DNA from: a virus
Reading direction: 5' to 3' (one strand)
Length of the DNA: 20,198 nucleotides
IMG/VR virus record: IMGVR_UViG_3300031463_000555
Location: 1 to 20,198 of that record
The position numbers and the translations under genes were made by a program. Shown in pieces: positions 4,073 through 20,198 of the stretch. Under the pieces are notes generated by a model. It had not been told where the DNA came from and searched no databases. It saw only the letters and a program-made list of their open reading frames with translations. How positions within the stretch are numbered: the first letter of the stretch is position 1; every line of letters starts with the position of its first letter.

Positions 4073-4791
4073 TCTTGCGGCTCCGAAGCGCCCTGAATAC
4101 GATGCCGGCCCGTATGCAAATACAACGTGCGAACCGTGCGGTCGCCCGGCTTGTGATCGGTGCGGCCCGGCTCGATGATCTCAACCCACGGCGCTCCGTG
4201 CGCCGTGGTGTCGTCGCACACGCGGAAGACCGCGCCGGTGCCGTCTTCTTGGATCAGGGTCCCGGCGGGGACCGGCCGGTGCTTGCATAGGAACTCGCGA
4301 GCGGACGGAGAAAGATGATCATCGAAATGACGCCAAAACAATTCCGCGACATCATTCTTGTTCAGACTGAGACCGAAGCACTGCTGAAGGAACTGGAAAC
4401 GATGGGATTCCGAAGCAGGTAAGTCATTCGCTATCAGTTGATCGAAACGGCTGGCGGCGCTGGCGGGGAGGGCTTGAACGAACACGAAGGCGTTGTCACC
4501 CTCTATCGTGATTTTACGGCGGGCGCCGTCGCGCATGAGCTTGGTCACGGGTTCCATGAATGCCTTTGCCGCGACCAGAAACTTCCGGACCTGTTTGGTG
4601 AGGATTACGCCGAGGCGATCCGCTGGTTTGTTGAAGAGCGGCTCGGTTGGACGGAGTGGCAATCGGAGTTTCAGAATCGCGCCCACAAGAACGATCTCGT
4701 GCTGGGCGATTGCGGATTCTATTGGCCGCGGTTCGTCCAGAATCTGCGCGCGGGACGGTTTTTTCCTGACTGAGGACTTCGGTTCGTTCAT
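4069..4791 (-). CDS. Hypothetical protein between distal tail protein and peptidase, 240 aa
   Basis: This is a 240-aa protein of mixed charge with no signal peptide or membrane helix. The N-terminus is basic (residues 1-16 contain six Lys/Arg). Residues about 130-185 (FQFLQQCFGLSLNKNDVAEL then FWRHFDDHLS) look helical, and the last 60 residues (GTLIQEDGTGAVFRVCDDTT) look like a small beta-rich domain. It overlaps both neighbours by 4 nt, so it belongs to the tail operon. In gene transfer agents and D3112-like phages the DUF2163-like and NlpC/P60 genes are usually adjacent, so this is an extra gene. I do not recognise it. It could be a tail-tip chaperone or an additional tip subunit. Confidence 0.75.
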   Translation of the reverse strand: MNEPKSSVRKKPSRAQILDEPRPIESAIAQHEIVLVGAILKLRLPLRPTEPLFNKPADRLGVILTKQVRKFLVAAKAFMEPVTKLMRDGARRKITIEGDNAFVFVQALPASAASRFDQLIANDLPASESHRFQFLQQCFGLSLNKNDVAELFWRHFDDHLSPSAREFLCKHRPVPAGTLIQEDGTGAVFRVCDDTTAHGAPWVEIIEPGRTDHKPGDRTVRTLYLHTGRHRIQGASEPQE

Positions 4792-7232
4792 GTTGACATC
4801 ACCGTGAAATTGCCACAGGGGCTGCCGGCGTCGGCACTGGAAGCGACGGCGCCATCGTTGCGAGTGACGACAACCGGGTGCGCGACACCAAGATCAAACC
4901 CATAATTCGAGTTGAGCTTGACCTCGATTAGGCGCTGTGACCAGGACCGGTAGGCAGCGGCGGCAAGTGTGACATCGCCGATGGTCACGGTGCCGGTCCC
5001 GCGCGAGTCGCCAAAGTTTTCACCTATCAGCCGGAGGGTATCGGTATTGTAGGCTGCATTGATGGCCGCGCCGTTGATGTTGGCGACATGGTCAAGCCAC
5101 GGCCGCCCGGCAGCCTTGCCGACGATGAGCGCCGGCGCGGTATCCGTCAAACCAGAGTCGGTCTGGATGGTGACGACGACCGGATCGGCGCCATACTGTG
5201 GGAGCGGTGGCACAGTAACGCGGATCGCCGTGTCGCTCCAACCGAGATAGGAGGCGGCGGCGATGCCATTGAACTTTACGAACCCGCTGCCGCGCGACGA
5301 GCCGAAGCCGAAGCCAATGATCCAGAGTTGTGCCCCGGCGACAGTTGAGCTGATCCTGCGTCGTGTGGAATCGGCGTTCTCGTAGTGGTCGGCGAGATCG
5401 GCGGCAGTGCCGGTGATCGTGAAATTTACGCCAGTCGCGATGACCGTGCCATTCGCCCGGGTAATGACGATCTCGCCAGTGTATGGGTAACTCGAAGCTC
5501 GTGGCGCGATGAATTCGATCTGGTTGTCGTTCCAGATGCTGAACGGGTCGGTTTTGAGTGGTCGCGGCCCTGGCGCAGTGATCACAACTTTCGTCTCGAT
5601 CGTGCCGATCTTGACGGAGCGCGCGTCGGGCGTGCCGGTGGGCGCGGTGCCGAAGCCAGCGCCAACGAGCCGGATTTTGAGGCCGATCGCGCTCTCAGTA
5701 ATCGTGGCGCCGAGCTGGTTCTTGACCGAATCGAGGAATGGGGACGGCGCCGCGATCAGTGCGGGACCTTCAGCGTTGTTGCCCTCGAGACCATCGCTGT
5801 TGACCAGTTCGATCAGAACGGTGCCGGGATCCACGGGCGGCAACGGCAAGGTGATGGCGGTGGCGTTTGCGGGCCAGCCCTGCGACGGCTGCCAGGCGCG
5901 CCAGCCCGGCCAGCTATATCCGCCCCCCGGCAACGTGCCCCCATTCTCCAGCGTGACATCCGCCCCATTGATTCGGACCGGACTGATGTTTGCCGGCGAG
6001 CCGAAATTTGTCTGCACGCCATCGAGGATCGCGGCCAGAATCTTCAGCGTCTGCCCGGGGGCGCATTTCGTGATGGCGTCGCCGTAGGCGTTGGCGTAGC
6101 CGCCAATGGTTGGCAGGTTTTGCGGCCCAGCGGGCGTCGGCGCGCCGGTCTGAGAGGTGAGCACCGGGTTGTCCGCGGGCAACTCCGGGAAACCGCGATA
6201 CCCGCGTCCTGCCCACCGGAGATCGGCAGCATCAAGGAGCGAATCGGGTCGGACTGTGAATGTGATCGTGCCGGCTTCGGGGTCGAATGTGGCAGGCGAC
6301 GGGAATGAAGCGCTCGTAAAACCTTTTTCAAAAAGCCGGTAAGGATGATTGAGTTGAATGTTGGCAAGGCTCGTCTGGCCGGTGATTTGCTGAACCGTTT
6401 GGAGGATGCGCGAGTAGAAGTTGCCGAGCGCGAGTGAGGCGGCGCGGTTGGCGGCGTAACCGGGGTAGAGCCAGAACTCGCCGTCGCCGTCATCGAGCAA
6501 CGGCGCGGGCTGGCTAAGCAGCAGGTAGCCGAGTTCCGGATGATCGGCATCTGGCGTCGGCACGTTCGTGACGACCCGGTGCCGGAGCGTGACGATTCGG
6601 CCGCCGAGTTCGCGTTCGTAAGAGAGAAACGCGTTATCGTAGTAGCCGGCTGGTTTGGCGGAGGCGGCAGCGCAATAGCAGAAATTGCGGTCGAGAGCGA
6701 TCACAGTGCCGCGCACGGCGTATTGTTCGGGATCGAGTCCCCAATCGGCGATGTCGCCCCACGGCGTGCGACCGTCGGTGAGTTGGACGAGATCGCGCGG
6801 GAACTTCAATTCGGCCCACGCGGCGAGTCGTTGGAATGTGGCGGTGACTTTGCCAGCCACGATCTGGCAATCTTTGAGTTGCGCAGTGAAGCTGTCCGGC
6901 CACGGCGAGCCGGCGTCATCGAAATAACACTCGTGGACATCAACCTCGACAATGAACGGCAGGCCGCGTCCGACAAATGACAGGAATGGTTCGACCGGTT
7001 CCATTTCCAGCGTAAACTCCTGAGCTTCCGTTTTGCCGTCGCTGCCTTCGCGGCCTTCGGTAAGGCCAATGACAGCGGCGGCATAGGTCTGGCCGTTCAG
7101 CGTCAGCGCGGTCGGTGATGAATACCGCCAGACAAAATCCGGCAAACCACGCAATCGGAATTCGAACGCGAATTGTGTGCGGACTTCGCGCGATTGCGCT
7201 GCTGCAATCAAAGCTGGCTCTAAGGGTCTCAT
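4788..7232 (-). CDS. DUF2163/BR0599-like distal tail protein with three IPT/TIG-like domains, 814 aa
   Basis: The N-terminal about 290 residues (VWRYSSPTALTLNGQTYAAA, then a run of beta strands to about YCAAASAKPAGYYDNAF) resemble the DUF2163/BR0599 family of GTA gp13-like distal tail or hub proteins that sit between tape measure and tip. Ordinary members end at about 300 residues. Here a further 500 residues follow. Within them, about 498-621, 622-710 and 711-814 each show the IPT/TIG pattern LxIxGxxFG...GxVxxG...W(S/N)DxxIxxxxP...VxVxxxxG, for instance LWIIGFGFGSSRGSGFVKFN. IPT/TIG folds are immunoglobulin-like and often display or bind carbohydrate. It overlaps both neighbouring genes by 4 nt. 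The fusion suggests surface display on the tail tip. The DUF2163 call is moderate; the repeat call is stronger. Confidence 0.75.
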   Translation of the reverse strand: MRPLEPALIAAAQSREVRTQFAFEFRLRGLPDFVWRYSSPTALTLNGQTYAAAVIGLTEGREGSDGKTEAQEFTLEMEPVEPFLSFVGRGLPFIVEVDVHECYFDDAGSPWPDSFTAQLKDCQIVAGKVTATFQRLAAWAELKFPRDLVQLTDGRTPWGDIADWGLDPEQYAVRGTVIALDRNFCYCAAASAKPAGYYDNAFLSYERELGGRIVTLRHRVVTNVPTPDADHPELGYLLLSQPAPLLDDGDGEFWLYPGYAANRAASLALGNFYSRILQTVQQITGQTSLANIQLNHPYRLFEKGFTSASFPSPATFDPEAGTITFTVRPDSLLDAADLRWAGRGYRGFPELPADNPVLTSQTGAPTPAGPQNLPTIGGYANAYGDAITKCAPGQTLKILAAILDGVQTNFGSPANISPVRINGADVTLENGGTLPGGGYSWPGWRAWQPSQGWPANATAITLPLPPVDPGTVLIELVNSDGLEGNNAEGPALIAAPSPFLDSVKNQLGATITESAIGLKIRLVGAGFGTAPTGTPDARSVKIGTIETKVVITAPGPRPLKTDPFSIWNDNQIEFIAPRASSYPYTGEIVITRANGTVIATGVNFTITGTAADLADHYENADSTRRRISSTVAGAQLWIIGFGFGSSRGSGFVKFNGIAAASYLGWSDTAIRVTVPPLPQYGADPVVVTIQTDSGLTDTAPALIVGKAAGRPWLDHVANINGAAINAAYNTDTLRLIGENFGDSRGTGTVTIGDVTLAAAAYRSWSQRLIEVKLNSNYGFDLGVAHPVVVTRNDGAVASSADAGSPCGNFTVMST

Positions 7233-11493: not shown

Positions 11494-11522
11494 TTGACAT
11501 CCGCAAGGGGCCGTCGTAAATT
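11494..11522 (+). promoter_or_regulatory. Predicted hicBA promoter
   Basis: A perfect TTGACA (11494-11499), 17-nt spacer and TAAATT (11517-11522) lie on the plus strand. The hicB ATG at 11530 is 7 nt downstream of the -10 box, at the expected transcription start, so hicB is predicted to be leaderless. HicB proteins commonly repress their own promoter; no clear operator palindrome is obvious here. Confidence 0.75.
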
Positions 11523-11529
11523 GCCGCGC

Positions 11530-11859
11530 ATGGAACAAATCGTACACATCGAAGGCCAGTTGTCGTGGGACTGCGCCCAAAGCCGGGAGTCGGGCAAATG
11601 GATTGGCGTGTGCGAAGCGCTGCGCCTGACGGTGCAGGCCGACAGTTACCGCGAACTGGACGCCGCCATCGAGGACGGCTTGCAACTGCTGTTCGCCGAT
11701 CTCGTGCGGGCCGGCGATCTGTCGGACTTCCTGAAGGAACATGGCTGGCGCGCGCACGATCCGGTCGTAATCGCCCGCTCCCCGCGCCAGTTGCGGTTTT
11801 CGATTCCCCACAGCAAAAAACGCGTGGCCCTCCATGATCTCGAAGCCGCGGTTTGTTGA
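11530..11859 (+). CDS. hicB: HicB-family antitoxin
   Basis: This is a 109-aa protein with the partial RNase H-like fold of HicB antitoxins. A beta hairpin (MEQIVHIEGQLSWDCAQSRE) is followed by GKWIGVCEALRLTVQADSYR, matching the HicB pattern G-x-W-x-x-x-C-x-x-L...G-x-(T/S)...E. Then comes the long helix ELDAAIEDGLQLLFADLVRA. HicB binds and neutralises the HicA mRNA interferase and usually autorepresses the operon. The order is antitoxin first with a 26-nt overlap onto hicA, so the two are translationally coupled. An upstream TTG at 11494 is in frame but lies inside the -35 box, so the ATG at 11530 is preferred. The C-terminus (FSIPHSKKRVALHDLEAAVC) is not an obvious helix-turn-helix, so DNA binding would need another mode. 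The cassette opposes the phage late operon. Confidence 0.85.
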   Translation: MEQIVHIEGQLSWDCAQSRESGKWIGVCEALRLTVQADSYRELDAAIEDGLQLLFADLVRAGDLSDFLKEHGWRAHDPVVIARSPRQLRFSIPHSKKRVALHDLEAAVC

Positions 11860-12052
11860 ACAACTCCGCGCGCTCGGCTACCGGTTCCAGGACCAGACCA
11901 AGCGGGTGGAACTCTGGCGGCGCAGCGGCAGCACCCACCGCGTCATCGTCCCGAAATGCGATGAACTCGACCCGCTGTACGTCCGCGGCGTGTTGCGCCA
12001 ATGCGGCATGAAGGAGCGCGACATCGCCGAGTTCCTCGCGGAACAACCCTGA
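11834..12052 (+). CDS. hicA: HicA-family mRNA interferase toxin
   Basis: This is a 72-aa dsRBD-like small toxin. The catalytic region is in SGSTHRVIVPKCDELDPLYV: the His at position 35 in G-S-T-H is the expected catalytic residue of HicA ribonucleases, which normally have G-S-H. The C-terminal helix region VRGVLRQCGMKERDIAEFL matches the usual L-R-x-x-L-R-x-x-G-(I/M)-x-x-x-x-F-x-x-x-L. HicA cuts mRNA and tmRNA and stops growth unless bound by HicB. It starts 26 nt before the end of hicB and is followed at once by a GC-rich stem-loop. The extra Thr between Ser and His is a small oddity that could affect activity. Confidence 0.85.
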   Translation: MISKPRFVEQLRALGYRFQDQTKRVELWRRSGSTHRVIVPKCDELDPLYVRGVLRQCGMKERDIAEFLAEQP

Positions 12053-12083: not shown

Positions 12084-12643
12084 CTACAACCTTGGCGGGA
12101 TTTTCTTGAGCAGGTCATTGGTTTTCTCCGTGAACCTTGCCAGTTGCCGAAACGTCAGATGATCCAATTCATCCTTTGTCCAGCCGCCGAAGCGCATCAG
12201 GAACACGTAAAGGCCGATCAAGTCTCCCTCCGTGGTTGCGTCACACCCGCCGCGCCGATCCGCGCGGCGATGGATTTTCCCCGTTTGAGCAGCTCCTCAT
12301 TGAGATTGATTTCCAGCGCCTTGTCCAGCACTGCCAGCGCATCCCGCGCAGCCAGCGCGCCGAACTTCTCGGCAGATAGCCCGGCGGATTTCTCCGCCAG
12401 ATACAAAGCGAGTTCGTCCACGCTGGCAATCAGCGCCGGCAGATTAGCCAGTAGGGCAGTGACGGCCGCCCCGGCCGTGGTGGCGTCCATAACCGACACC
12501 GATGCGCCGAGCTTGCCAATGTGGCCGCTGAGTTTCTGGAGGAACTCCAGCGCCTCGCGCCATGATAGTTCTCGGACCCGAATCACTTCGCCGGTTGACA
12601 GTTTCAGGTCCCGGTCAGGAAACAGAATTTCGATGTCGTTCAT
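12084..12643 (-). CDS. Tail assembly chaperone GT-type frameshift product, 186 aa
   Basis: The zero-frame gene below can be extended by a -1 frameshift at GGGAAAA. After 123 codons the ribosome would read 63 further codons in the -1 frame with no stop, through GLYVFLMRFGGWTKDEL and FRQLARFTEKTNDLLKKIPP, to the TAG at 12086-12084. This second domain looks like a true small helical domain with the W-x-x-(D/E)-(D/E)-(L/I) and R-x-x-x motifs common in the T-part of phage chaperones. It has no start codon or Shine-Dalgarno of its own. In lambda, gpG and gpGT chaperone tail-tube polymerisation on the tape measure. The hicBA cassette sits immediately after its stop. Confidence 0.8.
12086..12128. repeat. 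Right copy of 43-bp direct repeat flanking hicBA
   Basis: This copy lies in the coding region of the GT-type frameshift product, ending directly before its stop codon, so it is the functional and probably original copy. Its partner is at 11446-11488. Confidence 0.95.
12218..12643 (-). CDS. Tail assembly chaperone, G-type zero-frame product, 141 aa
   Basis: This 141-aa protein (lambda gpG is 140 aa) starts MNDIEILFPDRDLKLSTGEV and continues IRVRELSWREALEFLQKLSG, a beta hairpin then helices as in phage tail chaperones of the gp41 type. It lies between the tail tube gene and the tape measure, the invariant place for such chaperones. The start has an AAAGAG Shine-Dalgarno 8 nt upstream. Termination is at the TGA at 12218-12220, about 50 nt beyond the slippery heptamer. 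Most ribosomes would make this product and a minority the GT fusion. Confidence 0.85.
   Translation of the reverse strand: MNDIEILFPDRDLKLSTGEVIRVRELSWREALEFLQKLSGHIGKLGASVSVMDATTAGAAVTALLANLPALIASVDELALYLAEKSAGLSAEKFGALAARDALAVLDKALEINLNEELLKRGKSIAARIGAAGVTQPRRET
12275..12281 (-). promoter_or_regulatory. Programmed -1 frameshift slippery heptamer GGGAAAA
   Basis: On the minus strand the zero frame reads CGG GGA AAA TCC. This places the heptamer G GGA AAA in the exact X XXY YYZ register of a -1 slippery site; lambda G-T uses GGGAAAG. The -1 frame is open from here for 63 codons, and the zero frame stops shortly after. No downstream pseudoknot was worked out, but the following sequence is GC-rich. 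Confidence 0.82.
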
Positions 12644-12664
12644 AAGCGCACTCTTTAGTCCATA

Positions 12665-12708
12665 GTCCAGAGTTCTGAGTCATTCGCTGCGGACTCAGAA
12701 CTCAGGAC
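12665..12708. other. Long intergenic stem-loop between tail tube and chaperone genes
   Basis: GAGTTCTGAGTC (12670-12681) pairs perfectly with 12692-12703 across a 10-nt loop. After one A-A mismatch another 4 bp pair (12665-12668 with 12705-12708). It fills the 79-nt gap after the tail tube stop. There is no T run in the minus-strand direction, so it may act as an RNA-processing or stability element that sets the tube-to-chaperone ratio, or be a palindromic repeat. On the plus strand TTTTTT follows 6 nt after the outer stem, a possible weak terminator for opposing transcripts. Confidence 0.7.
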
Positions 12709-12722
12709 CGATGATTTTTTGA

Positions 12723-13514
12723 TCATCCGCGATCCACTCGCATGATCGTGCCCCACCCAAGCGTCGGGTGCTTCAACGCCACGAGGTTGAACTCCAGAGG
12801 CGAGTTGTCGTCCACCACGCTCTGGGCATTTCCGTCAGGCTCAAGCCGCGCAAGCGGGATGGTTTCCTTCTCGATCACCGCGCCATCCTCGAAGACGCGC
12901 CAGATTTCGGCGGAGACGCTGAGTTCGGTGACGGCGAACTTGTCGAACACGCCGCCCGTTTGCGCTTCGCAGTCGTAGGTGATCGTGTAGGCCATTTCGG
13001 CCTCCAGCAGCGCCCGCAGAAACGCGATTCGTCCTGCGTGATAATCCACCTTGTAATCGGTGTCCTCGACGAGCACGGTCGGATTTTGTCCGCCGCTGCT
13101 GACAACCACATTGCTGACGCCGCGTTTCGCTAGTGGATACCAGCCGCCCACCATCACTTCATCTTTGTTCTCGGTGCCGGTAACTTCCGCGATCGTCTCG
13201 GTTTCGCCGGTTGCCGCTGCCTGCGTGAATGGCGTAGCGTCTTTGCCCAGGAACCAGCTTCGCAATAGCGCGCTGGTCCGTTCGAGCGCCTTGAACTTGT
13301 ATTCCACCTTTCTGAGGTTGACGCGCCGTTTCACAATGGAGGCAGTGCCGCCGATCCCGCTGATCGTTTCCTTGATCTCGCGTTCCGGCGTGATCGAGAT
13401 TGGCTCGATATGGCCGAAATGCGTCGGCGCCGCGTCGCCCGGCAGCGTGATAAATACATGATCGCCACCGGCGAGCATGTTGTCGGTGTTTGGACTGACT
13501 TTGAGTTGACTCAT
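12723..13514 (-). CDS. Major tail (tube) protein, 263 aa
   Basis: I chose the ATG at 13514 because AGGAG lies 8 nt upstream; the longer frame to 13610 would translate the CAA repeat as polyglutamine and overlap the previous gene. The protein is beta-rich: GDHVFITLPGDAAPTHFGHI at the start, then repeated strands such as ITYDCEAQTGGVFDKFAVTE and LEFNLVALKHPTLGWGTIMR. Position between the gp37-like gene and the chaperone pair, before the tape measure, is that of the tail tube subunit that polymerises around the tape measure. The initiation region lies behind an unstructured (CAA)8 leader, in keeping with a need for high expression. Identification is mainly by order, size and beta content. Confidence 0.75.
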   Translation of the reverse strand: MSQLKVSPNTDNMLAGGDHVFITLPGDAAPTHFGHIEPISITPEREIKETISGIGGTASIVKRRVNLRKVEYKFKALERTSALLRSWFLGKDATPFTQAAATGETETIAEVTGTENKDEVMVGGWYPLAKRGVSNVVVSSGGQNPTVLVEDTDYKVDYHAGRIAFLRALLEAEMAYTITYDCEAQTGGVFDKFAVTELSVSAEIWRVFEDGAVIEKETIPLARLEPDGNAQSVVDDNSPLEFNLVALKHPTLGWGTIMRVDRG

Positions 13515-16515: not shown

Positions 16516-17067
16516 GTTGCGGTTCTCCTTTGCGGCGCTTGCCGCGGGTTGAGGGTTGTTGGTTGTTGCATCTCTCGCCCACAAGGGCGAAATGTCCGAG
16601 AACGCGGGTTCATTGACGAGGCCGCCCATGCAGAGCGGCGCGCCGAGAACGCGCGCGGGTTTCGTGTTGGTCTCGAAAAACGTCGGGGAAAACGAGCGGA
16701 AGGTTTTTCCGGTGATCGCCTCGGCACCGGGCTTCGACCATTCGACTTTGCAGTAGATGCCCGGTCGCGGCGTCTCCCGCCACTCGAAGGCCAGCGGCCA
16801 GGCGCTGGCTTCGGCCTCGCGGTGGTCGAAATCGAGGTAGGGTTTCAACCCCTTCTCGAAATACCGGGCAAGGATCGCCTGCATCGTGGCGGCGTCTTCG
16901 GCGCCGATGTCGAGCGACACCTCGATCTCGGCGTCGCCCTTGCGGGCGCGGATGACGTGGCGGCCGCCGGGCATCCACATGATCCAATCGGGCGGCGAAT
17001 CGCCGAGGGCGTAGGCGGACCGGCAATGGAGCGGCATGGGGTTGGAGTGTTGGAGTGATGGAGTCAT
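15091..17067 (-). CDS. Mu gpI-like prohead protease fused in frame to scaffold and major capsid, 658 aa
   Basis: The ATG at 17067 overlaps the gpG stop (ATGA) and has AAAGGAA 6 nt upstream. Residues 1-184 are a Mu gpI-like maturation protease: LDFDH (acidic/His motif), ASAWPLAFEW, GIYCKVEWSKPGAEAITGK, SFSPTF and a final GGLVNEPAF, all in the family's order. In Mu the frame ends before the separate capsid gene; here no stop separates the protease from the capsid start at 16515, only a Q/N/P-rich linker (DATTNNPQPAASAAKENRN). Full-length translation would give a protease-scaffold-capsid polyprotein, and internal initiation gives capsid alone. The open frame upstream of 17067 is a shadow of gpG. 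Confidence 0.8.
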   Translation of the reverse strand: MTPSLQHSNPMPLHCRSAYALGDSPPDWIMWMPGGRHVIRARKGDAEIEVSLDIGAEDAATMQAILARYFEKGLKPYLDFDHREAEASAWPLAFEWRETPRPGIYCKVEWSKPGAEAITGKTFRSFSPTFFETNTKPARVLGAPLCMGGLVNEPAFSDISPLWARDATTNNPQPAASAAKENRNMKVKLIRARGGNAAGAIVELAGDELVAALDNGDAITLAADDALKAKDAKIQEQAEAIKARAKQDAETKVAEAVKAGKIKGDDALKTRWVEMILADPKNAELLDALPAADDGSQRITQPVTTKASAVEIPYGQLAPIEDALKGYTEEKNPKRRAAIYAREFSPRAQRDEMIPIRCANVLGTVAADLITQRRLELLVDTLPILTRIARNFSDTALKFGKTAYAQKIGVLTPVAYVAGTGWPNVDVSVSDITVTLNKRMGIQITFHQEELSGTTRRLFTEQEEAQVYALGKAITDDLYALITADNFPTAGTACALADFARVKLPEFADLLDTAKAPDYARSFILKNDFYNKLTEDSSIVSIALPESQRAMQTGKLPMLSGFEMIKATNLPSTANLKGFALFADALAMVTSPDEDYINAIPGVPATALLQTVTEPRTGISVTLVKFTDHKLAAAYQRASLVYGVAKGDSTLGVRLVTP

Positions 17068-17714
17068 GCGGTTCCTTTCAGCACGTGGCGCCGCAGCCAC
17101 TCGGCGGCGCGCGCCATGAGTTTCTCCTGGAGCACGGACGGCCTCGGCAGCGCGTCGGGGTCCTTGGGGACGGTGACGAATCGTTTGAGCCAGTAGAAAA
17201 CGCCGCCGCCTTGTTCGCCGAGCGACTTGGCTCGGAGTTGGCCTTCGCGGCCTTTGCGGCTGTCCTTGACGATCCGCAGCGCGGTGAAATCGCGCTGGAC
17301 CAGCATCCCGCCCGCGCGGGTCGGCACGAACCGCAGGCCGGGGATCAGGCCGCTCGATGGCCGGATGCCGTAGGCTTCCGCGCGCGCGGGGATGGCGAGG
17401 AATTTCGCTTCCTTCGGGCGGATCGTGCCGCCGTAGTAATGGGCGTGGATCGCCGGGTCGGCGATGCTGACGGTGGCGGCATCGTTGGTGGCGCCCGTAA
17501 ACACGGTGGCATTGCGGATGCGCGCCCAGAAGTGTTGACGCGGCCAGCCGCGTCGGTTGCCGCGGGCGTCTTTGGCGGCGAAATGAGCGCGCAAATCGGC
17601 TTCCAGGCCGCGACCGAGCGCGGCCAGCAACGGCTGGCGGTGGGTGAGGTTGGCCAGCGCCTCGCGCAGCGCGGGCGAGGCCGTGTCGCGGACCTGGACG
17701 GAGAGGGAGATCAT
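17064..17714 (-). CDS. Mu gpG-like virion morphogenesis protein, 216 aa
   Basis: The ATG at 17714 has a strong GGAGG Shine-Dalgarno 6 nt upstream and is preferred over the longer frame. The sequence follows the phage virion morphogenesis (gpG) pattern: MISLSVQVRDTASPALREAL, a helix, then FAAKDARGNRRGWPRQHFWA, then HAHYYGGTIRPKEAKFLAIP with the conserved YGGTI, and a basic C-terminus. Mu gpG sits between gpF and gpI, exactly as here (gpF remnant, gpG, protease), and acts in head assembly or tail joining. The gene is preceded by a divergent plus-strand gene only 37 bp away, so late transcription must pass through that accessory block. Confidence 0.85.
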   Translation of the reverse strand: MISLSVQVRDTASPALREALANLTHRQPLLAALGRGLEADLRAHFAAKDARGNRRGWPRQHFWARIRNATVFTGATNDAATVSIADPAIHAHYYGGTIRPKEAKFLAIPARAEAYGIRPSSGLIPGLRFVPTRAGGMLVQRDFTALRIVKDSRKGREGQLRAKSLGEQGGGVFYWLKRFVTVPKDPDALPRPSVLQEKLMARAAEWLRRHVLKGTA

Positions 17715-17716
17715 GC

Positions 17717-17745
17717 TTGGCCTCCGGTGGGGCTGGTGGCAGAAT
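17717..17745 (+). promoter_or_regulatory. Predicted promoter of the membrane protein gene
   Basis: TTGGCC (17717-17722), a 17-nt spacer and CAGAAT (17740-17745), each four of six consensus, lie 6 nt before the ATG at 17752. The surrounding CTTGGCCTCCGG matches the CTTGAC(A/C)TCCG motif at hicBA and in the two 188-bp repeats. The geometry again predicts a leaderless mRNA. The region overlaps the gpG Shine-Dalgarno on the other strand. Confidence 0.5.
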
Positions 17746-17751
17746 GGCGGA

Positions 17752-18165
17752 ATGAAACAGTCCGAGGCACAAGCCCTGATGGAACTGGCCGACTGGCGCA
17801 ACGAACGATACTACCAGTGGCTCCGATTTCTTCTTGGATTAGCCGCAGGGACTCTATCGCTTCTGGTGGCATTTCCACCGAGTGCCACGGGTCCGGCATG
17901 GTGGTGCGCGCGCGTGGGATGCACTGCACATGGACTAGGTATCCTGCTTGGCGCATTCGCGCTGCACGGCGAAGTATGGTCTGCTCACGCGAAGACCAAG
18001 GAGGCGTTCCGACAGTTGCAAAAATCACCTTTTGATGCCAACGGCCAAACGCCTTCCATAGGCGGCGTGCGACTGCCCGCGCGGTATCGAGTCGCCGAGC
18101 GAGGTTGCTACGGATGTTTGGCCATCGCGGTGTTGTGTTGGATGGCGATGTCATGGCTGCGGTAA
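17752..18165 (+). CDS. Small three-helix membrane protein, 137 aa
   Basis: The N-terminus MKQSEAQALMELADWRNERY is a cytoplasmic-looking amphipathic helix. Three hydrophobic segments follow: about 22-41 (WLRFLLGLAAGTLSLLVAF), 54-70 (AHGLGILLGAFALHG) and 120-136 (GCLAIAVLCWMAMSWL). A charged loop AKTKEAFRQLQKSPFDANGQ lies between the second and third. It is read against the late operon and diverges from gpG. The last 161 bp of the gene are inside a 188-bp repeat whose second copy (18490-18677) has lost both the upstream part of the gene and its stop codon. No family is recognised. An immunity or superinfection-exclusion role is a guess from being a membrane-protein accessory gene next to nuclease-like domains. 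Confidence 0.6.
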   Translation: MKQSEAQALMELADWRNERYYQWLRFLLGLAAGTLSLLVAFPPSATGPAWWCARVGCTAHGLGILLGAFALHGEVWSAHAKTKEAFRQLQKSPFDANGQTPSIGGVRLPARYRVAERGCYGCLAIAVLCWMAMSWLR

Positions 18166-18192
18166 TCATCGCTTGACCTCCGCGCCGGTCGG
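18005..18192. repeat. 188-bp direct repeat, copy A
   Basis: This matches 18490-18677 with only five differences (18009, 18012, 18163, 18183, 18189); 18013-18162 is identical over 150 bp. It contains the 3' part of the membrane protein gene, its TAA stop and the -35 box of a promoter-like element. Copy A is the intact version. Confidence 0.95.
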
Positions 18193-18201
18193 ACGCATAT
18201 T
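18173..18201 (+). promoter_or_regulatory. Promoter-like element downstream of the membrane gene (copy A)
   Basis: TTGACC (18173-18178), 17-nt spacer, CATATT (18196-18201), embedded in CTTGACCTCCG. No convincing plus-strand gene follows; it may have lost its gene when the nuclease copy was inserted. It aligns with the copy-B element because both lie in the repeat, so the two are not independent. Confidence 0.4.
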
Positions 18202-18258
18202 CTTTGTGCGGCCCCGTCGCCGGGATCGTTTCGGACGTACAGCTCTGAGGGATCGTCT

Positions 18259-18654
18259 TCATGACGGTTGCACCGGGGCACTCGGCGCAGGGCCGATCCA
18301 AAGGGTTTTGACTCCCATGCTCTGTTTATTCACGGAGCGCGTCCATGTGATCAGATAACTTCGTCCCAGAATCACCTTGCGAAATTCCAGCGTGCCCGGT
18401 GTCTTGCCGGGACGGACGGAATCCGGATTGCGCCACACATGGGGCAATACTTCGAAGTCAAGTCGTGTGAGTGGTCGCTGTGATGGATTCGTTTCGCCAG
18501 TTGCAAAAATCACCTTTTGATGCCAACGGCCAAACGCCTTCCATAGGCGGCGTGCGACTGCCCGCGCGGTATCGAGTCGCCGAGCGAGGTTGCTACGGAT
18601 GTTTGGCCATCGCGGTGTTGTGTTGGATGGCGATGTCATGGCTGCGGCAATCAT
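18259..18654 (-). pseudogene. Orphan second copy of the nuclease-like C-terminal domain
   Basis: On the minus strand residues 62-120 (18295-18471; LTRLDFEVLPHVWRNPDSVR and on to TLWI) align without gaps to the C-terminus of the gpF-like gene at 18764-18940, with 30 of 59 identical including PHVWR-x-PDSV-x-PG, LE-x-RK, and TL. The 60 residues before it are the antisense of the plus-strand membrane gene repeat, Arg-rich and probably not a native domain. The body of a gpF gene is missing. It is therefore an orphan nuclease-domain fragment flanked by the two 188-bp repeats, either a stored alternative C-terminus or a decayed gene. An ATG at 18654 overlaps a tiny upstream frame (ATGA), so expression as a 131-aa protein is possible. 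Confidence 0.65.
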
Positions 18655-18677
18655 CGCTTGACCTCCGTGCCGGGCGG
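18490..18677. repeat. 188-bp direct repeat, copy B (truncated gene copy)
   Basis: The partner of 18005-18192 at an offset of 485 bp. In this copy the TAA stop of the membrane gene is CAA (18648) and the first 84 codons of the gene are absent, so it is a remnant on the plus strand. Confidence 0.95.
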
Positions 18678-18749
18678 GCGTAGAGTGCAGAGGGAACCGT
18701 GAGTCGCGTTCTGGACGTCTGCCAGGGGCTTGTACATCTGGCCACTCAT
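18651..18749 (-). CDS. Possible 32-aa coupled peptide after the gpF-like remnant
   Basis: An ATG at 18749 overlaps the stop of the gpF-like frame (ATGA) and has AAGGGG 6 nt upstream. It codes for 32 residues (MSGQMYKPLADVQNATHGSL onward, ending GTEVKR), and its stop overlaps the ATG of the orphan nuclease frame. The chain of two ATGA overlaps and a Shine-Dalgarno argues for translation. The peptide has no recognisable feature, and the end is antisense to a promoter-like element, so it may be accidental. Confidence 0.3.
   Translation of the reverse strand: MSGQMYKPLADVQNATHGSLCTLRPPGTEVKR
18658..18686 (+). promoter_or_regulatory. Promoter-like element (copy B)
   Basis: TTGACC (18658-18663), 17-nt spacer, TAGAGT (18681-18686). 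A GTG at 18699 with AGAGGGA just upstream opens only 23 codons and ends at 18770, where the opposing gpF-like gene begins. This looks like the cut-off start of a lost plus-strand gene. Confidence 0.45.
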
Positions 18750-19270
18750 GCGTTCCCCTTTTTGATGTAGAGCGTGTTCACGAACATGCGCTTCTGTTGC
18801 GGCCACATCTGGTAGGTGATCATTACTTGCTCGCCGATGATTTGCTTTCGCATCTCCAGCGAACGAGGCTTGTTTCCCGGCAACACGGAGTCCGGTTGTC
18901 TCCAGACGTGCGGGATTGTTTCAATTTGCAGGCGCGTCAAACCGGGATGCGCGGTCATCGCGTGCGAGAGATGTTCGGGCGTGATAAACAAATCCATCCC
19001 CGCGATGTCCAGGCCAGCCTGACGGGCCATTGCGACTGCGTCGGGAGTGGCGCGACCGAGTGAAAACCCGGCTGGCTTCGCTGCTTCCAAGCGCCCGCGC
19101 GATTCCCAATCCTGAACCGAATCAAGGAAGTCCCCGATGATGTTCCCCTGCCACTGGGCCCTGTCGCCTTCGATGACGATCTGGTCGCCGAACATATCCT
19201 TCAAGTCCTGCCGTCCGTTGTCGTCGAGATCGGCGATGCTCTGTTCCAGCTTGTCGTTGAATCCCGCGAG
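18746..19270 (-). pseudogene. gpF-like head protein, 5'-truncated, with nuclease-like C-terminal domain
   Basis: The native-looking sequence begins near 19270 (PLAGFNDKLEQSIADLDDNG) and runs into the ATG/TTG-initiated 152-aa frame from 19204. It includes GLDIAGMDLFITPEHLSHAM, THPGL-type HPGL, and the C-terminal IPHVWRQPDSVLPG...NTLYIKK. This last part (residues about 76-150 of the 152-aa frame) has the pattern of phage-Barnase-EndoU-ColicinE5/D-RelE-like (PBECR) nuclease domains often found at the C-terminus of Mu gpF proteins: LTP-E-H-L, H-P-x-L, (I/L)P-x-(V/I)-x-x-x-P-D-x-V, and a final T-L-Y. Position just before gpG fits gpF. The normal gpF body (several hundred residues) is missing; upstream the frame runs into sequence that codes better on the plus strand. 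Domain assignment is from memory of the motif. Confidence 0.6.
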
Positions 19271-19365
19271 CGGCCCGCCGCAAGACGAGCGAAGCCGTCC
19301 GCGCCGAGTTCGACGCGACGGACTCCCGCCTGCGCTCCGCCTTCACCTCCGAGGTGACCCCGTGA
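19271..19365 (+). pseudogene. 3' end of a truncated plus-strand gene before the ATPase
   Basis: In the plus frame ending at the TGA at 19363-19365 the sequence reads RRKTSEAVRAEFDATDSRL then RSAFTSEVTP, a natural charged C-terminus. The stop overlaps the ATPase GTG (GTGA), which is typical operon coupling. In Mu-like phages the gene before the ATPase B is transposase A, so this is probably the end of a transposase, but only about 30 codons remain and nothing diagnostic is visible. Confidence 0.5.
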
Positions 19366-20198
19366 ACATCGCCAACACCTCCTACGCTCGGCAGATACTG
19401 TACACGCTCAAGGTCGCCGCGCGCGCCGGTTCGCGGGGCAAAGGCGTCCTGCTCTTCATCGCCGGCGACTCGCGCATCGGCAAGACGTTCGTCACCGAGT
19501 CCTGGTGCACCGAGACGGGCGCGAAGTTCTACCCTTACGACGACGGCGGCGGCGCCCGCCACGTCCAGCGCCAACTGGCCGCGCTGTTCGGGATATCGAA
19601 GTACGGCAACGCGGAACTTGTGGACAAGCTCGAAGCGTTCTGCCGTGCGATGCCGCCGCCGCGCGTCCTGGTCGTTGACGAACTGCATCTGATGTTGAGG
19701 GGCCGGTCCAATCATCCCGTGATGATCGAGTTCCTCCGACGCCTCGCCGATCTCTGCGGCATCTCTGTCGTCGCGCTCGCCACGTTCGACCGGTTCAAAC
19801 AGGCCCTCGCCGAATCAAACTGGAACGACACCCAGTTCTTTGGGCGGGCCGACGACATCCTGATTCTCGACCCTGAATGGGTCCGCCGCCCCACGGCGAC
19901 CGACAAGGGCGAACGGCGTCCGGTGGAGGCGGACATCGAGGCGCTCCATAAGTTTGATTGCCCGGAGATCAAGCTCGACGACGGCCTCGCCAAAATCTGG
20001 CGGGCGCTACATGACCACGAGAAGGGCGGCCCCGGCCTGATCTGCCGTTGCATCGCCAAGGCGCGCGACTTCGCCGCCGATGATCTGAAGGAAAAATTTT
20101 CGCGCGAACACCTGGTCGCGTGCGCCGAGAGGCAGTTGAACGCCCTCGATCAATTAACTAGCCAACTCCGAGTCGGCGCACTCCGCCGCCGCCGCTGA
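19362..20198 (+). CDS. MuB/IstB/TniB-like AAA ATPase, 278 aa
   Basis: I use the GTG at 19362, which overlaps the preceding stop; the longer frame to 19137 is antisense to the gpF remnant. Walker A is GDSRIGKT (about residues 34-41 of the 278-aa product) and Walker B is RVLVVDELHLM (about 102-112), with a sensor-like stretch SVVALATFDRF after it. This is the layout of MuB/IstB/TniB ATPases that bind target DNA and activate the transposase. The C-terminal third (KIWRALHDHEKGGPGLICRC onward) is helical, as in MuB-type proteins. The stop codon is the last base triplet of the window. No insertion-sequence transposase or terminal repeat is visible, so the phage origin is favoured over IS21. Confidence 0.85.
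   Translation: MNIANTSYARQILYTLKVAARAGSRGKGVLLFIAGDSRIGKTFVTESWCTETGAKFYPYDDGGGARHVQRQLAALFGISKYGNAELVDKLEAFCRAMPPPRVLVVDELHLMLRGRSNHPVMIEFLRRLADLCGISVVALATFDRFKQALAESNWNDTQFFGRADDILILDPEWVRRPTATDKGERRPVEADIEALHKFDCPEIKLDDGLAKIWRALHDHEKGGPGLICRCIAKARDFAADDLKEKFSREHLVACAERQLNALDQLTSQLRVGALRRRR

Follow-up and report, generated by a model that had tools for sequence, protein, structure and literature searches.

A probable recombination scar at the PBECR3 end of a gpF-like head gene in a Mu-like phage

In a Mu-like phage from bacteria of the Verrucomicrobiota type, the region between the gpF-like and gpG-like genes is, in our assessment, probably the scar of a recombination event in a polymorphic effector, in which one C-terminal end of gpF (CT1, or domain 1) has replaced another (CT2, or domain 2). 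The small membrane protein gene beside them does not look like an antidote. On the minus strand, domain 1 is followed by copy B of a direct repeat, then domain 2, then copy A with the intact membrane gene. The coordinates (Table 1) confirmed this order, which had been proposed in an earlier sequence-only reading of the same DNA.

Table 1. Features of the gpF–gpG region and its flanks (positions in the window)
Feature	Position	Strand	Remarks
gpG-like virion morphogenesis gene	17064–17714	-	57% identity to L002 gpG; phrog_6367
gpF–gpG slot with antisense cassette	17730–18207		Three different antisense genes in the L002 slot (4337–5878)
Small membrane protein gene, intact (137 aa; three probable TM segments)	17752–18165	+	Antisense to late genes
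Repeat copy A, membrane gene 3′ end plus about 30 bp	18000–18195
Native 3′ flank of CT2	18208–18258	-	blastn, 18208–18498 vs L002 4336–4045, 77%
CT2, gpF PBECR3 end reduced to its last 79 aa, His helix absent	18259–18498	-
Repeat copy B, fragment of membrane gene 3′ end, without start, stop lost (CAA)	18485–18680
Non-homologous joint J1, truncated membrane gene against truncated CT2	18490–18498
Spacer after CT1, short ATGA-overlapping ORF, unrelated to native gpF 3′ flank	18681–18745	-	Sequence
gpF-like minor head protein, C-terminal part (173 aa)	18746–19267	-	About 225 N-terminal residues missing
CT1, complete PBECR3 RNase-like domain	18752–19033	-	Predicted active-site H107 (18947–18949) and T165 (18773–18775)
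Joint J3, cut gpF (-) abutting tail of gene upstream of MuB-like ATPase (+)	19267–19361		Frames
MuB-like ATPase	19362–20198	+	PF13401/TniB, phrog_296

Setting of the locus and state of the contig

The window, which is the whole 20,198-base stretch that was analysed, is a complete IMG/VR-type virus record. Its late genes lie on the minus strand in a Mu-like arrangement that runs from the gpF-like head gene to the gpG-like gene and on to the tail genes. The GC content of the region under study is lower (0.54–0.63) than that of the flanking late genes (0.65–0.72).

The gpF reading frame is cut at about 19267 and the N-terminal part of the protein is absent from the contig, so the gpF copy of the window cannot work as it stands. 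The gpF-like and MuB-like genes are 95 bp apart in the window versus 15–16.5 kb in three related phages or prophages, where they are also divergent. This comparison indicates that a large piece, about 15 kb that includes the N-terminal part of gpF, is missing from the window at about 19270. Either prophage decay (a deletion in a defective prophage) or misassembly is the cause, and the window copy is thus defective or the contig misjoined. An inversion at the gpF/MuB joint was considered and ruled out, since the divergent orientation is normal in the relatives and DNA is missing instead.

Two further sets of small genes were seen in the window. Between tail genes, two overlapping small genes run against the direction of the late genes (11494–12052, plus strand); the second is HicA-like (PF07927, E 0.001, below the cut-off), and a HicAB-like toxin–antitoxin pair is possible. 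The contig end (1–620, minus strand) encodes two or more small proteins that look alike and have long low-complexity tails rich in serine, for example at 407–601.

Domain 1 at the end of the gpF-like protein

By profile and alignment, domain 1 is a complete PBECR3 domain that ends a gpF-like head protein. It matched the PBECR3 profile PF18812 with E values of 8.5e-9 and 6.4e-11 and 35.8–36.6 bits, above the curated cut-off of 30 bits. The adjoining sequence is gpF-like, and the gpF part in the window shares 37% amino acid identity with residues 224–400 of the gpF of L002, a related contig from another phage that carries an intact 411-aa gpF. An AlphaFold2 model of the 173-aa gpF part (pLDDT 84) contains helix H97–106 and four strands in the arrangement of the BECR fold. 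In a Foldseek search of a viral library this model matched phage nucleases, a minor capsid protein and a MuF C-terminal protein, with E values from 3.6e-7 to 5.8e-4, which supports a BECR/MuF-C fold. A fold search of the PDB with the same model gave no significant match, with RelE/HigB near the top of the list. The suggestion that a nuclease domain is carried on a phage head gene was thus upheld for domain 1, by profile score, by predicted fold and by the gpF-like sequence next to it.

The active site of PBECR domains consists of a His and a Thr (Iyer et al. 2017, PMC5512222). The predicted catalytic residues, H107 and T165, are both present in domain 1 according to the alignments, the model and a codon check. 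The loop after the His is short in CT1, which sets it apart from the PBECR3 domains described on phage head proteins (PMC5512222). By analogy with other gpF-fused PBECR domains, CT1 would travel inside the head, enter the host together with the phage DNA by injection and cut RNA with its His–Thr site; RNase activity and injection are both predictions.

Domain 2 as a truncated remnant

Domains 1 and 2 are 50.8% identical over 59 aa (18940–18764 vs 18471–18295), and this alignment begins after H107 (codon 18949–18947) of domain 1. The two domains are therefore not equivalent, and only domain 1 is whole. CT2 shares 78–81% amino acid identity with the C-terminus of the L002 gpF, and the similarity to L002 runs on for 50 bp beyond the stop codon. 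In the protein alignment CT2 starts at GETNPSQRPLT, after the His helix; in the DNA, homology to L002 starts at 18498, past the His-bearing helix, and meets the repeat there. The alignments with L002 thus identify domain 2 as a truncated C-terminal remnant of the native gpF end and not a second nuclease. Lacking the His helix, CT2 would be incapable of cutting RNA. Of the two nuclease domains originally proposed, the first was found to be a complete PBECR3 domain, while the second is a gpF remnant.

Domain 2 did not reach the PF18812 cut-off (17.4 bits). Its match to half of the profile is no proof of truncation, because the intact L002 gpF matches the same half and also scores only 16.8 bits; truncation is proved instead by aligning DNA and protein with L002. 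Between CT2 and L002, dN/dS is about 0.07 and 42 of the 59 changes fall at third positions. The coding pattern has been kept, suggesting that the cut of domain 2 is probably recent.

That coding pattern also speaks for another reading. A minus-strand ORF (18654–18259) joins a leader of about 50 aa, encoded by the repeat, to CT2 in frame, and could specify a new protein in its own right, for instance one that regulates CT1 or acts as its decoy; a good Shine–Dalgarno sequence, GGAGGT, lies 6 nt before its ATG. However, the leader is antisense membrane-gene DNA, long antisense open frames are common here (539 codons in L002) and the selection signal of CT2 is mostly older than the truncation. We regard a stand-alone protein as highly improbable, and the ORF was judged to be an accident of high GC despite its Shine–Dalgarno sequence.

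The direct repeat and the joints

Copies A and B of the direct repeat are 96.9% identical over 191 bp, a similarity far beyond chance. A core of 150 bp (18013–18162) is exact and nearly all of the mismatches are at the repeat edges. Across 18013–18182 there is a single mismatch, at 18163, inside the stop codon of the membrane gene, which reads TAA in copy A and CAA in copy B. The identities given in the sequence-only reading, about 97% for the repeats and 51% (30 of 59) for the nuclease-like domains, were reproduced, as was its conclusion that the domains did not arise by the same recent duplication. An in-place tandem duplication of the cassette, followed by divergence of one nuclease copy, would yield the tandem order and the direct repeat, but it is scarcely credible: the repeat is 97–99% identical versus 51% for the domains, on which grounds it was rejected, and it is CT2, not CT1, that groups with L002.

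The joint between the truncated membrane gene and the truncated CT2 was located from the start of L002 homology at 18498 and from the point at which copies A and B diverge (18012/18009). When the joint (18490–18498) was compared with its L002 counterpart, an overlap of 1–2 bases was found and no shared word beyond it. The event was therefore not a simple homologous exchange through the repeat. The repeat, proposed earlier as a recombination handle, could still have served as one, but the joint that is visible is non-homologous. Downstream of CT1 on its own strand, a 31-codon ORF was the only one found.

A second abnormal joint, at about 19267, lies approximately 780 bp away, and both may be products of misassembly or of prophage decay. 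In that case the locus would be a chimera of two related phages, made during assembly or amplification, or the product of random decay in a defective prophage, with no selected swap. The occurrence of two abnormal joints within 800 bp, the loss of about 15 kb and of the gpF N-terminus at the second of them, and the fact that the record is a 20-kb fragment are all consistent with a chimera or with decay. A chimera is harder to reconcile with the first joint, which offers no shared word for an assembler to walk through, with the resolution of both repeat copies with distinct bases, and with the orientation at the second joint, which is the natural divergent one. We consider an origin by chimera or decay rather unlikely.

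The membrane gene and the gpF–gpG slot

In the window, the blastn blocks shared with L002 stop at 17729 and 18208; the matching edges in L002 are 5879 and 4336. As judged from these boundaries, both phages carry an insert in the same slot, with different cargo. No such insert was found in the other gpF–gpG pairs with PBECR3 ends (L003, L009, L011, L013–L016 and L018). The start region of gpG, GGAGGCCAAGCATGATCTCC, is similar to the sequence at the other edge of the slot, GGAGGTCAAGCGATGATTACC, a hint that the gpG start may have been the point of entry for the cassette. In L002, three unrelated antisense genes lie between gpF and gpG (4407–5891); one of them encodes a 147-aa membrane protein of phrog_2720 (E 1.7e-10).

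The membrane gene of the window was recognized as an ORF with same-length homologues in L053 and L054 and by its hydropathy. A single-sequence model of the protein was all-helical and of low confidence (pLDDT 64), too poor for a fold search. No promoter was evident for the gene, and PADLOC gave no defence profile match. Among Verrucomicrobiota genomes, two clear relatives of the protein and a few weak ones were found. The clearest homologue (G266/L053) belongs to a Mu-like prophage with a short gpF that lacks a toxin end, and lies antisense there at a different site. The homologues in G011 and G097, the latter weak, are near HTH and integrase-like genes (L054 and L070); homology of the L070 type to the membrane family is weak (E 4e-4). 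L055 and L056 were set aside as weak and unconvincing matches. The protein was not found in named phages or, using peptide patterns, in genome contigs.

The sequence-only reading saw the membrane gene as a possible partner or immunity gene in a toxin/immunity array, with the repeat serving as the handle by which toxin and partner segments are exchanged. The membrane gene does adjoin the gpF end, the repeat belongs to it, and orphan toxin ends behind a main gene are known from CDI systems (PMC3150448). Against this, the gene is absent beside all of the other PBECR3 gpF genes listed above, the cargo of the L002 slot differs, and the prophage that carries the best homologue has a gpF lacking any toxin domain. 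In addition, the membrane gene tails are near-identical while the C-termini beside them, only 45–51% identical, differ by half, the reverse of what a cognate pair would show. CDI-type modules combine a complete toxin end with a cognate immunity gene; here domain 2 is truncated, and the gene that adjoins it is the same cassette tail as is found beside domain 1. A membrane protein would also be unusual as immunity to a toxin whose predicted target is cytosolic RNA. A toxin/immunity array is accordingly very unlikely in our view.

The gene is small, encodes a membrane protein, is independent of the late operon and is variably present, as morons are. The antisense position of its homologue elsewhere, without a toxin-bearing gpF, and its absence at the other PBECR3 gpF genes argue that it is better read as an independent moron of the lysogeny or superinfection-exclusion type than as an immunity gene; its function is possibly superinfection exclusion.

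Two paralogous 78-aa membrane genes antisense to late genes were observed in L071 (G215) at 6402–6638 and 12627–12863, and one of them has a PBECR-like ORF and a gpF-like gene as neighbours. Late operons of this kind may often contain antisense membrane genes. A further proposal, that the gpF–gpG boundary of Verrucomicrobiota Mu-like phages is a dedicated exchange site at which an undescribed antisense membrane family involved in superinfection exclusion travels with the injected RNase ends of gpF and supplies homology for swapping them, is speculative and we think it unlikely.

Which end is the newcomer

Relative to L002, identity is 57% for the gpG of the window and about 80% for domain 2 versus 37% for domain 1 with the adjoining part of gpF, which is about as distant from L002 as from other relatives (28–37%). 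Neighbouring segments therefore have conflicting affinities to L002. The simplest reading of these values takes domain 1 as a newcomer from a different phage and domain 2 as the native end that it displaced, a direction that rests mainly on one comparator, L002. The earlier idea that one C-terminus had been swapped for another agrees with this contrast.

Under the replacement of CT2 by CT1, the ancestral phage would have had an L002-like gpF ending in CT2, followed by the slot with its antisense membrane gene, a moron, before gpG. A second phage would have carried a different gpF end, CT1, with nearly the same membrane cassette, and its DNA would have been joined in. The incoming stretch, comprising gpF with CT1, the spacer and the first 170 bp or so of the cassette, would have been joined non-homologously to the resident gpF end, partway along it, at 18490–18498. 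The effector end would thereby have been replaced, and a shortened CT2 would have stayed behind with a second, partial copy of the membrane gene. A pair of phages that differed in their gpF ends but had nearly the same cassette would account for a repeat that is 97–99% identical next to ends that are about half identical. A search of IMG/VR with peptide patterns found no second contig with CT1 or the membrane gene, and the donor is thus hypothetical.

Relation to known systems

Head proteins of the MuF type with variable toxin ends have been described as polymorphic toxins in temperate phages (Jamet et al. 2017, PMC5576092), as have MuF proteins that carry PBECR domains (Iyer et al. 2017, PMC5512222), so calling the module undescribed, as had been suggested, was too strong. 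The kind of effector is already known, and the informative part is the probable recombination scar. As in MuF toxins (PMC5576092), the gene belongs to the head module, next to gpG, and its C-terminus varies among relatives. A search for variation of the C-terminus had been proposed as a check, and in the Verrucomicrobiota panel gpF was found to end in PBECR3, in nothing or in other extensions. Unlike in MuF toxins, the N-terminus of gpF in close relatives gave no match to PF04233 (Phage_Mu_F), though a weak match to phrog_220, minor head protein, was seen; the N-terminus in the window is missing, as the gene is cut. A conserved small immunity-like gene downstream, as in MuF toxins, also appears to be lacking here. 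In L014 (1501–2670), the PBECR3-like end of gpF lacks the His segment and may be inactive, as has been reported for the gpF of Mu.

Displaced toxin ends are found at CDI loci as orphan cdiA-CT/cdiI modules (Poole et al. 2011, PMC3150448). The locus resembles these in that a piece of a toxin end has been displaced to a position behind the main gene and has homologues elsewhere. It differs in that the fragment is truncated inside the catalytic domain and has no cognate immunity gene, and in that the duplication covers only the tail of an antisense gene with no relation to the toxin. It also differs from PBECR3 head fusions (PMC5512222) in that domain 2 is a mere remnant without the His helix.

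Morons, superinfection exclusion genes among them, offer another comparison. The likeness lies in a small membrane gene on the opposite strand between late genes, in one site with variable cargo, and in relatives of the gene near repressor-like and integrase-like genes.

The slot after gpF gathers unrelated antisense membrane genes. The presence of a membrane gene near a phage toxin end is no evidence of immunity, which corrects a tempting toxin/immunity reading. If CT1 has replaced CT2, the locus would give a direct view of how the end of an injected phage effector is replaced, with the old end persisting beside the new one.
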